Source: Alphaproteobacteria bacterium
GTDB lineage: Bacteria > Pseudomonadota > Alphaproteobacteria > GCA-2731375
Assembly (NCBI GenBank): GCA_021776235.1
Contig: JAJFGG010000009.1
Location: 1-64,000 of the forward strand
Reading direction: 5' to 3'
DNA: 64,000 nucleotides
Shown here: positions 42,902 to 53,045 of the stretch, in pieces
Position numbering within the stretch: the stretch's first letter is position 1
Layout: the number at the start of each line of letters is the position of its first letter
The notes under the pieces: generated by a model
Database searches by the model: none
The model's input: the letters and a program-made list of their open reading frames with translations, nothing else
Told to the model about the DNA's origin: nothing
Program-made: the position numbers and the translations under genes

Positions 42902-42948
42902 CAGGCCCGGGCCGCAATTGCCCGCAACGTGTTGCCTGTTAGGGCCTG
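42902..42948. terminator. Possible bidirectional hairpin between convergent genes
   Basis: CAGGCCC (42902-42908) can pair with GGGCCTG (42942-42948) around inner GCAAC-GT-GTTGC. It lies between the stops of the MBL and DsrE-like genes and overlaps the DsrE stop. No T-run. Confidence 0.35.
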
Positions 42949-43394
42949 ACGACCGTCCAGCCTTTTTCATCCAATTCTATGATCCGCACCACGCCGGCGG
43001 GAACCATTTCGGTAAAGGTGAACAGTTCTGGCGCCTTGCCTTCCTTTTTCGTCATCGCCGAATGGGTATTGCCGCAGGCCATGAATTTAACATTTGTCAT
43101 ACTCTTGGAAAAAGACTGCATCCGCTTGGCGACAGGGGATGTATCCACTCGCAGCATATGCAGGCCGCGGTTGAAGGCGACGATTTCAATCTCGACTTCT
43201 TCACCCTTGTCGGAATAGTACCGGGATACGTTGGCCGCAACGTTCAGCACCGTGTTCATCTTTTGCGGATCTTTGTCACTGATCTGCAGCACCAGTTTGT
43301 GAACATCTTCCTCAGCCGCATGTGCAGACGGAAAGGCCATAACGGCGACCGAAAGAATCAATGCGAAACTCAATATCAAATTTCTGATAGGCAT
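42939..43394 (-). CDS. Exported DsrE-like family protein
   Basis: A 151-residue protein with a signal peptide (FALILSVAVMAFPSAHAAEE) and a DsrE/F-like fold: KLVLQISDKDPQKMNTVLNV, VEIEIVAFNRGLHMLRVDTS and VKFMACGNTHSAM with the conserved Cys position. DsrE-type proteins carry sulfur as persulfides. Last gene of the sox operon on the minus strand, 34 bp after soxD. A role in periplasmic sulfur handling next to Sox enzymes is likely but unproven. Confidence 0.85.
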   Translation of the reverse strand: MPIRNLILSFALILSVAVMAFPSAHAAEEDVHKLVLQISDKDPQKMNTVLNVAANVSRYYSDKGEEVEIEIVAFNRGLHMLRVDTSPVAKRMQSFSKSMTNVKFMACGNTHSAMTKKEGKAPELFTFTEMVPAGVVRIIELDEKGWTVVRP

Positions 43395-49406: not shown

Positions 49407-49426
49407 ACATATGAAAACTTGCATGT
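49407..49426. promoter_or_regulatory. SoxR-type operator 1 (soxW-soxX)
   Basis: ACATATGAAAACTTGCATGT, an imperfect inverted repeat. It matches operator 2 at 17 of 20 bases. It lies 62 bp upstream of soxX, in the region where Paracoccus pantotrophus SoxR binds. Confidence 0.8.
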
Positions 49427-49468: not shown

Positions 49469-50050
49469 TCAGGTGGCCTGTTTCAGATAGTTGCGAAAGC
49501 TCAAGCGCTCGTAGGCGCGCTGCTCCACGTACATGAACATCTTCAAAAAATGATTCGGCTTCATGTATCCCGCAAGACGGCTGACTTCCCGCTGCCTCGG
49601 CTTGGTATCCGCGCCAAAATCAGCAACGGAAGGGAAAAACTGTATCGTTGGGGTGAAGCTGACACTGTACTTCCGAGCCAGTTTACGCTCCGAAAGCTCT
49701 TCGCCGTCAAAGTCCACGACCTTTCGTGAGCCAATCAGGTTGAGCTGCAATATTTCGAAATTCGTTCTGATGAAGGCAAGAATATCCGGCCGCGCAAAAT
49801 TAACGAGATGAGTTTCCCTGCAATAGGGACAACCCTTCAGCTCCCAGATGACGGCAAACCGTTTGCCGTTTGCGGCACTTTCGCTAAGGTCATCGGCCAG
49901 TTCCAGAAAACTTTCGAGAAACCAAGGTTGATGATAAAGCCCATCATCACCCAACACCGGACCGCTGTCAGAGGCCCCGGCGAGCGGCGGCAAAACCATG
50001 CTGCCCGTCAAGCTCCCCAAGGCCAAAACTGCGGTCCTGCGTGTCATCAT
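49469..50050 (-). CDS. soxW: SoxW-like periplasmic thioredoxin
   Basis: About 193 residues from ATG 50050 (MMTRRTAVLALGS). A Tat-like signal is followed by a thioredoxin-like fold with CxxC Cys74-Cys77 (KGCPYCRETH) and cis-Pro in SFTPTIQFF. SoxW proteins keep Sox components reduced using electrons from SoxV. The extension to 50236 crosses operator 2 and the divergent gene, so it is rejected. Confidence 0.85.
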   Translation of the reverse strand: MMTRRTAVLALGSLTGSMVLPPLAGASDSGPVLGDDGLYHQPWFLESFLELADDLSESAANGKRFAVIWELKGCPYCRETHLVNFARPDILAFIRTNFEILQLNLIGSRKVVDFDGEELSERKLARKYSVSFTPTIQFFPSVADFGADTKPRQREVSRLAGYMKPNHFLKMFMYVEQRAYERLSFRNYLKQAT

Positions 50051-50081: not shown

Positions 50082-50101
50082 ACATATAATAATTTGCATG
50101 T
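50082..50101. promoter_or_regulatory. SoxR-type operator 2 (soxW-divergent gene)
   Basis: ACATATAATAATTTGCATGT, extended by C and G to CACAT...ATGTG. A TATAAT is embedded at 50085-50090 on the plus strand, so binding would cover a -10. It lies 46 bp ahead of the gene at 50148. Confidence 0.8.
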
Positions 50102-50147: not shown

Positions 50148-50885
50148 ATGACAATGGCGAACTTCACCAGGGCCTTTTTCTGCCTGCTGGCAACATGCCT
50201 TTTCGCGGCGCCGGCCGCCGCCGAAGTAAGCCGCACCAGTGAATTCCACCGCGCCTTGGGTCAGGCAATGTCCCATCTTCGAACAGCGAACGGATATCTA
50301 AGAACCCGGAATGGGGACCTAGCGGCAATTGAGCTGGAAGGCCTGATCGAAAGCTGGAAAATGGTTGCCACGGCGTCTTCGCCCGCGCCCGATGCCTATG
50401 CCGAGGATCTCGGGTTCGGCGCGGCCATCCGTTCGGCGGCCGATGCTATGACGATGGCTCTGCGGCAGGCAGACCAGGGCGAGCTTATGGCGGCGCGTAA
50501 TATACTGCTCAGAATCCGCCGTGACTTGTCGCTGATGCGGCGGCGCAACGGTCAGGTCATGCTGGCGGATTGCATTTTGGACCTGAATGACGCCGGCCAG
50601 CCGTTTTGGCTATACTATCGGATACAGCCGGATTGGAATGTTTTCAAAGTCCAATATGACATGATCACCCGGGCCGGAAATTATCTCTATCTGCTGCGTC
50701 GATGCGATGCATCGGCGCCGAAGGCCGTTCGAGAAGATCCCGAATTCCGCCGCCTGATCGACGGGGCAACTGATAGTTTATCCAGGATGCCGCAGGTCGT
50801 CCAAGACCGGAATAGTAATCTGCTGGATCGGATTTTGGGCCAGCTGCGGTCTATTGACAGGTTGCTGCACTTTCGCTTTGGCTGA
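50148..50885 (+). CDS. Secreted protein of unknown function in the sox locus
   Basis: A 245-residue protein (or 243 from ATG 50154) with a signal peptide ending near FAAPAAAEVSR. I do not recognise a family. The mature part is predicted mostly helical, with LRTANGYLRTRNGDLAAIEL, ALRQADQGELMAARNILLRI and a Cys pair far apart (ADCILDLN and LRRCDAS). No CxxCH, CxxC or TM. A SoxR-type operator lies just upstream, and it is flanked by soxW and soxV/ccdA. It is therefore probably induced with the sox genes and acts in the periplasm. Confidence 0.8.
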   Translation: MTMANFTRAFFCLLATCLFAAPAAAEVSRTSEFHRALGQAMSHLRTANGYLRTRNGDLAAIELEGLIESWKMVATASSPAPDAYAEDLGFGAAIRSAADAMTMALRQADQGELMAARNILLRIRRDLSLMRRRNGQVMLADCILDLNDAGQPFWLYYRIQPDWNVFKVQYDMITRAGNYLYLLRRCDASAPKAVREDPEFRRLIDGATDSLSRMPQVVQDRNSNLLDRILGQLRSIDRLLHFRFG

Positions 50886-50897
50886 TGGCATCAGGCC

Positions 50898-51635
50898 CTA
50901 GCCAATGCGGCCCAAACCGGGAAACGTCTCCAAAATCCAAAAAGAAATTTCCGGCACCGCGCCAAATATGAACAACAATCCCGTGGCCACCAGCAGGGCC
51001 CCGGTGATTTTTTCGATCAAAGCCATCCGGCGTTTTACCTTGGCAGCCCAGCGCAAAAAGCGTGGTGCGAACGCTGCCGCGCCAATAAATGGCAGCCCAA
51101 TCCCCAGGGCGTAGGACGCCAACAGATAGCCGCCCTCCAACATGCTCTCCTCCGCCCCGGCAACCATAAGGATGACAGCGAGTACCGGGCCGACACATGG
51201 CGTCCAGCCAAAGGCAAAAGCCAGTCCCATTAAATAGGCCCCGGCAAGGCCCGCGGCTTGCCCATCGACATTAATGCGCAATTCCCGGTAAAGGGCATTG
51301 ATCCGCAAGACGCCAGCGAAATGCAGCCCGGCAAGAATGATGACGCCCCCGGCGACGCGCGCCAAAACATCAAAATATTCGCTGACAATCTGCCCCAGGT
51401 AGGACGCCGCCAAGCCCAGCAGCACGAAAACCGTCGAGAACCCGGCCACGAAACTGACGGCTGAAATGATGGTTCTGCGGGTGACATCATGGCCTGTCGC
51501 TTCGCCGCTGAATTGCTGAAAGCTGATACCGGCGATGAAACATAGATAGGGCGGGACAATTGGCAACACGCATGGCGACAGGAATGACAGCAGGCCCGCC
51601 AGAAAGGCACCCAATATGCCAATATCCATGCCCAT
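50898..51635 (-). CDS. soxV: SoxV/CcdA-type thiol-disulfide membrane transporter
   Basis: A 245-residue, six-TM CcdA-like protein. The redox cysteines are in FLSPCVLPIVPPYLCFIAG and FGWTPCVGPVLAVIL. It moves reductant from cytoplasmic thioredoxin to periplasmic SoxW/SoxS. GAAGGAA precedes the ATG. It is divergent from soxS and convergent with the unknown gene. Its -10-like TATAAT lies in operator 3. A general CcdA role in cytochrome c maturation is an alternative. Confidence 0.9.
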   Translation of the reverse strand: MGMDIGILGAFLAGLLSFLSPCVLPIVPPYLCFIAGISFQQFSGEATGHDVTRRTIISAVSFVAGFSTVFVLLGLAASYLGQIVSEYFDVLARVAGGVIILAGLHFAGVLRINALYRELRINVDGQAAGLAGAYLMGLAFAFGWTPCVGPVLAVILMVAGAEESMLEGGYLLASYALGIGLPFIGAAAFAPRFLRWAAKVKRRMALIEKITGALLVATGLLFIFGAVPEISFWILETFPGLGRIG

Positions 51636-51650
51636 GAAAATTCCTTCAAT

Positions 51651-51670
51651 ACATGCATAAAATTATATGT
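51651..51670. promoter_or_regulatory. SoxR-type operator 3 (soxV-soxS)
   Basis: ACATGCATAAAATTATATGT; its reverse complement matches operator 2 at 17 of 20 positions. It abuts a perfect TATAAT (51670-51675) for soxS, and contains TATAAT on the minus strand (51667-51662) for soxV. Confidence 0.82.
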
Positions 51671-51694: not shown

Positions 51695-52096
51695 ATGCAG
51701 GCAAGTGCTATGCGGCTACACCTCGCCTTGATCGTTATGCTGCTGACGACGTCACCAACCTATGGTGCGCAACTGGTGATGTTTAAGAGCGACACCTGTG
51801 AATGGTGCGAAACGTGGGATGACGTTATCGCGCCGATCTATCCAAAAACCGCCGAAGGACGTCAGGCGCCGTTGCGCCGCGTTGATATTCACGATACCCG
51901 CCCCCCCGATCTGGAACATTTGCGCGGCATTCATTTCACGCCAACCTTTGTCTTGATCGCCGAGGGACGTGAGATTGGCCGCATTACGGGCTATCCAGGC
52001 GAGGACTTCTTCTGGGGCCTTTTGGAACAACTGATCAGAAAGTTGCCGGCAACGGTGGCTGCATCATGCAAGAAAGAGGGTCTAACGAAATGCTGA
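51695..52096 (+). CDS. soxS: SoxS-like periplasmic thioredoxin
   Basis: A 133-residue exported thioredoxin-fold protein (alternative start 51710). The signal peptide ends near PTYGA. The redox motif is CEWC (Cys35-Cys38) and the cis-Pro is in HFTPTFVLIAEG. SoxS reactivates SoxY in the Paracoccus system. Its 3' end overlaps the start region of the next gene. Confidence 0.88.
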   Translation: MQASAMRLHLALIVMLLTTSPTYGAQLVMFKSDTCEWCETWDDVIAPIYPKTAEGRQAPLRRVDIHDTRPPDLEHLRGIHFTPTFVLIAEGREIGRITGYPGEDFFWGLLEQLIRKLPATVAASCKKEGLTKC

Positions 52097-52599
52097 AGAA
52101 ACTGAGTCTTTCAATTGCCATAATAATCCTTTGCGTTTCAGGTACGTCAGCGATCGCCGATGAGGGCGGTGCCTTTGTCACCTTCAAGGTTCTGAAACCG
52201 GAAGTCGCCCTGGACCTGGCAAAAGCCGCGCTGGCGAGCTGCCGGAAAAATGGGTTTCAAGTCGCGGTCACCGTGGTCGACCGCTTCGGCATTACCCAGG
52301 TTACGCTGCGTGACCGGTATGCCGGCGCTCATACACCGGAAACCTCCAGGCGAAAGGCCTGGACGTCGGCCAGCTTTCGCGGTGCGACACTCGAGCTGGC
52401 CGGTGCGACGAAAGCGGGCAGCCAACTTTCCGGCGTGCGATTTGTTACAAACGCATTAATGGCAGGCGGTGGCGTACCTATTGATGCGGGCGGGACAATG
52501 GTGGGTGCGGTTGGCGTTTCCGGTGCGCCCACCGGTGATGCGGATGAAGCATGCGCACAGGCCGGAATAGACGCGGTCGAAGACCAGATCGCGTTTTAG
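52090..52599 (+). CDS. Exported HbpS/GlcG-like protein
   Basis: A 169-residue protein from ATG 52090 (MLKKLSLSIAI) with signal peptide ending near TSAIADE. The GlcG/HbpS fold is seen in LDLAKAALASCRKNGFQVAV, VTVVDRFGITQ, SRRKAWTSASF and GVPIDAGGTMVGAVGVSGAP. Family members bind haem or cofactors. Its stable place between soxS and soxR suggests a haem- or sulfur-related helper role, though this is unproven. The next gene follows closely. Confidence 0.87.
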   Translation: MLKKLSLSIAIIILCVSGTSAIADEGGAFVTFKVLKPEVALDLAKAALASCRKNGFQVAVTVVDRFGITQVTLRDRYAGAHTPETSRRKAWTSASFRGATLELAGATKAGSQLSGVRFVTNALMAGGGVPIDAGGTMVGAVGVSGAPTGDADEACAQAGIDAVEDQIAF

Positions 52600-52697
52600 C
52601 GGCATTCCACGGCAAAACGCTGCCGTTGTTGTATTGCCATGCCTGCCATGGCGATGATACATCTGCCACAGACACAGAAAACCTGATCGTTCTGGAC

Positions 52698-53045
52698 ATG
52701 CCCGCGAAACCACAGACTATGCCCGAAGACCTCAACGATCGCACCATGAGCGAAATGTTGAAGAATGCCCAATCCGCCACGGATCTGGTCAAGGCCGTGG
52801 CCCATGAAGGCCGCTTGATTATTCTGTGCATGCTGGCGGAAAAGGAGCGTTCCGTCACTGATCTGGAGCAAATTCTTTCGCTGAACCAGCCGTCCGTTTC
52901 ACAGCAGTTGGCGCGTCTGCGGTCCGATGGCTTGGTTGACACCCGGCGCGACGGCAAAACGATTTATTATTCATTGGCAAGCGAGAATGCCCGCAAGGTT
53001 GTCGAACTATTGTACGATCTGTACTGCAAGCCGCGCGTTCCTTAG
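52698..53045 (+). CDS. soxR: SoxR-type ArsR-family repressor
   Basis: A 115-residue winged-helix repressor if ATG 52698 is used; ATG 52719 and 52746 are alternatives, and the frame is open back to 52551. The ArsR core runs AHEGRLIILCMLAEKERSVT, QILSLNQPSVSQQLARLRS then DGKTIYYSL. A Cys in ILCMLAEKE and another near the C-terminus (LYCKPRVP) match the two-Cys layout of sulfane-sensing SoxR/SqrR proteins. It is the likely binder of the three 20-bp operators. Confidence 0.9.
   Translation: MPAKPQTMPEDLNDRTMSEMLKNAQSATDLVKAVAHEGRLIILCMLAEKERSVTDLEQILSLNQPSVSQQLARLRSDGLVDTRRDGKTIYYSLASENARKVVELLYDLYCKPRVP

Follow-up and report, generated by a model that had tools for sequence, protein, structure and literature searches.

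The window (the whole stretch of 64,000 nucleotides of alphaproteobacterial DNA analyzed here) encodes, between soxW and soxV, a 245-residue protein. In our reading, to which we assign a probability of roughly 40%, this protein is a helper dedicated to sulfur oxidation (Sox): a heme-less, duplicated b562/c′-type bundle that is expressed with SoxW and acts without redox chemistry. No Pfam or NCBIfam model names the protein, and its predicted fold is of a known kind. The features of the locus are:

49407–49426, no strand: sister operator upstream of soxX, found by pattern search
49469–50050, minus strand: soxW, exported thioredoxin-like protein with CPYC, divergent from the gene for the 245-aa protein (Thioredoxin_2, 2.6e-14)
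50082–50101, no strand: SoxR-type operator ACATATAATAATTTGCATGT, 20 bp, between soxW and the gene for the 245-aa protein, within perfect arms CTTCACAT/ATGTGAAG
50148–50885, plus strand: 245-aa protein, predicted to be exported; signal peptide ~1–25, bundle 1 ~22–137 (b562-like), bundle 2 ~137–245 (cytochrome c′-like), Cys142 and Cys186, no heme motif
50898–51635, minus strand: soxV, DsbD/CcdA-type membrane thiol transporter, convergent with the gene for the 245-aa protein (DsbD_TM, 5.6e-18)
51651–51670, no strand: sister operator between soxV and soxS, found by pattern search
52551–53045, plus strand: ArsR-family repressor (soxR; BigR-like), presumed reader of the three operators (HTH_5; BigR model 102.8 bits, below its cut-off of 155)

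The 245-aa reading frame starts with ATG and carries a Sec-type signal peptide, MTMANFTRAFFCLLATCLFAAPAAA, at its N terminus (judged by eye); export of the product is strongly suggested. The initial annotation had described an exported, mostly helical protein of 245 residues between soxW and soxV that matches no Sox family. This description holds: the reading frame, the signal peptide and the position agree with it, the AlphaFold2 model is all-helical, and no Pfam or NCBIfam family, the Sox models of either collection included, was matched at E ≤ 1. A sequence search of the PDB returned a single row (E 2.1), which is not convincing. No description of the protein was found in the literature searched, a body of text that excludes most subscription journals. 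The gene is real, because relatives at 25–38% identity to the window protein are open over their full length in other genomes, mostly in the same setting. It has diverged faster than its neighbors: between the window and a same-genus relative (G002), identity is 33% for this protein vs. 48% for SoxW, 54% for SoxV and 69% for SoxB.

The names soxW, soxV, soxS, soxR and soxT were given from domains and gene order, and in other loci from BLAST to the window proteins. The listed start of the soxW ORF (50236) is too long, and the likely ATG, picked by eye, is at 50050; the true start of soxR is probably further in than that of the ORF given above. The stops of soxV and of the gene for the 245-aa protein are 12 nt apart. 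Other Sox-cluster neighbors in the window are SoxX (TIGR04485), a second thioredoxin-like protein (soxS), an HbpS-like protein and a sulfur transporter (soxT). The HbpS-like ORF (PF03928; 52066–52599, plus strand) overlaps the end of soxS as listed, and several relatives (L012, L017, L056, L057 and L061, also L132, L137 and L148) have the gene next to soxS as well. A 151-aa protein encoded at 42939–43394 on the minus strand, adjoining the Sox genes, has a signal peptide and is DsrE-like, both by eye, and gave no Pfam match at 1e-3. It is recurrent in sox loci (48–66% identity in L012, L015, L017, L028 and L057; 35% in L016). In L128, L131 and L133 the gene for a relative of this 151-aa protein lies between soxV and soxW, on the strand of soxW, in the spot held elsewhere by the gene for the 245-aa protein.

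In the 6.36-Mb assembly, the operator pattern, which was derived from the sites themselves, was found at ≤1 mismatch only at the three sox-cluster sites; a fourth site, elsewhere, had 2 mismatches, and the backward control pattern gave no sites in the whole assembly. The operator is convincing because of this genome-wide count and not because of the 3-mismatch search within the window, which counts for little (3 matches were also reached in 5 of 100 shuffles). The site lies 31 nt from the start of soxW and 46 nt from the start of the gene for the 245-aa protein, and it is therefore common to both. The operator of the initial annotation is thus present at the 46 bp given there, and it is not, as was claimed, the gene's own. 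From the sequence, the gene appears to belong to a presumed SoxR regulon, in which it would be repressed. In other Sox bacteria, SoxR represses the sox genes when thiosulfate is absent (PMC5748708) and responds to sulfane sulfur (PMC10451225).

Among the upstream regions of six relatives, a clear operator was observed in L028 only, with AT-rich partial repeats in L061 and L017 and none in L060, L062 and L063. In L028, the gap between soxW and the relative carries an exact ATTC-N8-GAAT, the sole copy in 19.9 kb. This is the recognition sequence of SqrR, a related regulator, as quoted in PMC9774250. A promoter region common with soxW is not general, because in 7 of the 13 soxW loci described below another gene lies in between.

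Relatives of the protein are rare and divergent. Its own genome yielded one match, and the 15 genomes of the order contained one other carrier, at 33% identity. Among 385 genomes of the class, 10 matches were obtained at E ≤ 1e-3, and 9 were credible after a partial one (G055) was dropped. SoxB exceeded its cut-off in 39 of the 385 genomes and in all 9 credible carriers (Fisher p 4.5e-10, or 4.2e-9 if G055 is taken as a member; the p-value ignores kinship). With an 11-row profile, 30 of the 39 SoxB genomes of this draw gave no credible match (the best of these was partial, at E 0.002), so that Sox does not generally require the protein.

A further draw from the class (357 genomes, overlapping the first) returned six known carriers and three marginal partial matches, and a draw from the phylum (398 genomes) added G698 and G742, plus the weak partial match G477. 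Two SoxB genes of the G698 genome (L028) exceed the cut-off. Scanning named genomes yielded 9 loci, each of them a sox locus with soxW: four repeats (G002, G042, G198 and G368) and five new ones, from three MAGs of Rhodospirillaceae (the name of one refers to a Spongia bin), MarineAlpha3_Bin3 and Rhizobiales 64-17. When genome contigs were scanned with a single protein no match was obtained, because the family is too divergent, and a scan with an alignment as query succeeded; tblastn of plasmids with L013 found none. The partial matches G055 (a 685-aa ORF), G477 (L029), G299, G097 and G056 were rejected as members before counting; G299 and G097 are ParB-like by eye.

For 13 of the 16 distinct members, soxW is the sox gene closest upstream, in divergent orientation; six of these placements belong to close kin and hence are not independent. 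Direct adjacency to soxW was observed in 6 of the 13 loci (the window, L012, L017, L028, L061 and L063). An alpha/beta-hydrolase gene lies between soxW and the relative in the six close kin (L013, L014, L015, L055, L056 and L057), and a 522-aa ORF occupies this place in L016/L062. The G378 copy lies at the edge of one contig, and the contig with the sox genes of this genome stops within the 5′ part of soxW; adjacency is unproven there because the two contig ends have no sequence in common. The copies in G201 and G742 lie outside sox loci and form a clade of their own (support 100/100); G201 has Sox elsewhere in its genome, and G742 has no SoxB over the cut-off. Orthologues mostly outside sox loci, the outcome against which the initial annotation had set its proposal, were not observed. 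A periplasmic accessory of sulfur oxidation, as proposed there, is well supported by these 13 of 16 placements and by SoxB in 9 of 9 credible carriers.

The tie to soxW is stronger than that to soxV, because the stretches retrieved for L016/L062 and L063 show no soxV, and in L014/L058 soxV is separated from soxW by 7.6 kb with several genes. Where the gene directly adjoins both soxW and soxV, it splits a soxVW unit seen elsewhere. In 9 of the 30 SoxB genomes without the gene (L132, L134, L137, L140, L141, L142, L144, L145 and L148), soxV and soxW lie collinear and at most 51 bp apart, which leaves no room for a gene of this size.

In a Rhodospirillaceae-type MAG clade, the alpha/beta-hydrolase gene (PF12697) is directly upstream of the relative and on the same strand (L055, 9030–10004; L059, 9078–9968), and in both loci its end overlaps the start of the relative by 4 nt. 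At this position L013, L014, L056 and L057 have a homologue, beyond which lie two tandem soxW-like genes, and a 40% identical hydrolase is encoded in the sox cluster of G698 (L028, 17535–18410). The sister subfamily outside sox loci comprises L019 (9282–9998), which adjoins TRAP-type transporter genes (by eye), and L027 (9260–9970).

The AlphaFold2 model, made from ten sequences (pLDDT 90.4, pTM 0.76), contains a signal helix and then helices in two groups, predicted to form two four-helix bundles like cytochromes b562 and c′. Residues 31–136 were superimposed on cytochrome cb562 (3nmi_A; Z 12.9, rmsd 2.2, 99 of 106 residues aligned), and residues 137–245 on the Kuenenia Kusta0087/0088 complex (6r6m_A; Z 12.5, rmsd 2.2, 103 of 110), which we take to be a cytochrome c′. 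For the whole model, VIA ranked a designed helical fusion first (1y4c_A, Z 14.3), and the best Foldseek E-value was poor (0.26). Since bundle 2 was little covered in the structure list of the whole model, it was modeled alone (pLDDT 91.3). Foldseek then gave cytochrome c′ in the first two rows, with PsbQ also at the top (best E 0.096, which is poor; TM 0.74–0.77 with Kusta0087/0088). VIA placed Kusta0087/0088 first (Z 12.3, rmsd 2.3, 103 of 110), with designed bundles, PsbQ and FAT domains within ~1 Z unit. Helical bundles reach Z ~13 by common arrangement, and the fold alone does not prove kinship because other bundles score close behind.

Profiles were compared with hhalign, using 18 b562 rows and 28 cytochrome c′ rows, all of the latter with the heme motif. 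Bundle 1 aligned with bundle 2 at a score of 30.7 (P 6.3e-5; maximum of 60 column shuffles 14.3, reversed control 15.5). The score against b562 was 30.6 for bundle 1 (P 6.8e-5; 60 shuffles, maximum 13.9; reversed 13.2) and 26.1 for bundle 2 (P 4.2e-4; 60 shuffles, maximum 12.0; reversed 12.7). Scores against cytochrome c′ were weak (P 0.004 and 0.0097), that of bundle 1 being 21.1 vs. 18.7 for the reversed control; the c′ and b562 profiles aligned with each other at P 9e-9. The best sequence match to the Pfam b562 family (PF07361) among the members scanned was that of L019 (E 4.2e-5, 24.5 bits, cut-off 30); none of these exceeded the curated cut-off, and the window protein gave no match. Cytochrome c′ (PF01322) was not matched at E ≤ 1 by the window protein or the relatives scanned. 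When the family profile was run against the PDB, designed helical proteins came first (best 1.4e-4) and then b562 (0.13). YfdX (PF10938) was matched below its cut-off in 5 of 10 members (best 0.0053), over ~33–52 residues at shifting places, and this is likely helical noise.

The predicted structure and the profile scores strongly suggest (i) a heme-less fold of two bundles, and (ii) an internal duplication of the bundle. The protein is not a member of the cytochrome c′ or b562 families, because their heme features are missing, and that fold is probably its origin. The CxxCH motif is found in 0 of 16 members. Opposite Met7 and His102 of b562, presumably its heme ligands, the window protein has L37 and R132 (register taken from the ends of the structural alignment), and among the 16 members the only Met and the only His at these sites are in L028 and L019, respectively. 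In the 14 sox-clade members (the 13 in soxW loci and the G378 copy), no His or Met column is filled in more than 11 sequences and no Cys column in more than 10. Residues A47, A59, P81, A104, R131, D141, A190, R202 and S235 are invariant in these 14; with R131 at the end of bundle 1 and D141 at the start of bundle 2, these two may fix the junction. Cys142 and Cys186 are both present in 10 of the 16 members and both absent in 6, with no mixed case, and the pair probably forms a structural disulfide that is absent from some lineages. Four of the 14 sox-clade members have neither cysteine: L016, L017 and L061, visibly in soxW loci, and L018, at a contig edge.

Without conserved thiols or heme ligands, redox or covalent sulfur chemistry is disfavored, and protein or ligand binding is left. 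A ligand could be a sulfur intermediate (thiosulfate, polysulfide, sulfur) bound or buffered in the bundle cavity, with the conserved arginines 131 and 202 holding an anion. The Sox context and the invariance of R131, R202, D141 and S235 in the sox clade are consistent with such binding, which we consider unlikely: the cysteine pattern among the 16 members argues against covalent sulfur carriage, their net charge ranges from −12 to +11, and for R131 and D141, which flank the bundle junction, a structural salt bridge fits equally well. The binding, storage or repair of intermediates put forward in the initial annotation was not borne out as stated, and storage or carriage of sulfur on cysteine is unlikely because 4 of the 14 sox-clade members are devoid of the cysteines. 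The same four members weigh against the protein being a redox client of SoxV/SoxW in which a Cys142–Cys186 disulfide is opened and closed. The joint presence or absence of the two cysteines in 16 of 16 members is as for a disulfide, and the neighbors soxW and soxV encode thiol-disulfide proteins, but such a client appears very unlikely to us.

We give the least credit to the reading in which the protein has kept the binding of heme b or a metal between its helices and either functions as a cytochrome or handles heme for the cytochromes of the Sox system. The b562/c′-like fold, the HbpS-like neighbor at 52066–52599, and M41 and H43, present in 10 and 11 of the 14 sox-clade members, respectively, speak for it, but neither CxxCH nor the sites equivalent to Met7 and His102 are retained in the family as set out above. 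We put both the disulfide-carrier and the heme-carrier readings aside because neither the cysteines nor the ligands are conserved. Finally, the gene might have no role in sulfur oxidation and use the soxW promoter region by accident. Its fast divergence relative to SoxW, SoxV and SoxB, and the 30 of 39 SoxB genomes that have no credible match, would be expected of such a neighbor. This appears quite improbable given 13 occurrences in soxW loci whose surroundings vary, even with six of them from close kin, and the SoxB found in 9 of 9 carriers.

In the preferred reading, that of a non-redox Sox helper, a b562/c′-type four-helix bundle would have been duplicated in tandem to give a periplasmic heme-less protein, as the profiles and the predicted fold suggest. 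In this genome it would be expressed with SoxW from one divergent, SoxR-controlled promoter region, and it would act as a scaffold of helices, to which SoxW or a client, SoxYZ for example, binds. SoxW is the candidate partner because of position and promoter region, in this genome and in L028. By holding or presenting its partner for reduction, the scaffold would help the SoxV–SoxW thiol-maintenance branch, carrying no electrons by heme and not depending on the cysteine pair. A bolder version, which we hold to be doubtful, is that the duplicated heme-less bundle was recruited to set the activity or the client choice of SoxW. This would add, in some alphaproteobacteria, a level of control over the repair of SoxYZ thiols that had not been seen before. 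A gene linked to soxW through its location and operator, and without thiol or heme chemistry of its own, provides a handle on the targeting of the SoxV–SoxW branch, and its product would exemplify a cytochrome fold kept after heme loss and reused as a binding scaffold.

The 245-aa protein shares with the Sox thiol-maintenance branch (SoxV, SoxW and SoxS) its gene position and, in this genome, a common operator. It differs from that branch in having neither a thioredoxin fold nor conserved cysteines, and in not being found in 30 of the 39 Sox genomes searched. With b562 (PF07361) it has in common the antiparallel four-helix bundle, as predicted, to which bundle 1 aligns both in structure (99 of 106 residues) and by profile, but it has two bundles per chain, no matching heme ligands and about 12% identity. 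Bundle 2 as modeled resembles the fold of cytochrome c′ (PF01322), as in Kusta0087/0088 (Z 12.3–12.5, 103 of 110 residues), whereas the protein differs from that family in its lack of CxxCH and of a Pfam match, in its weak profile score and in its duplication.
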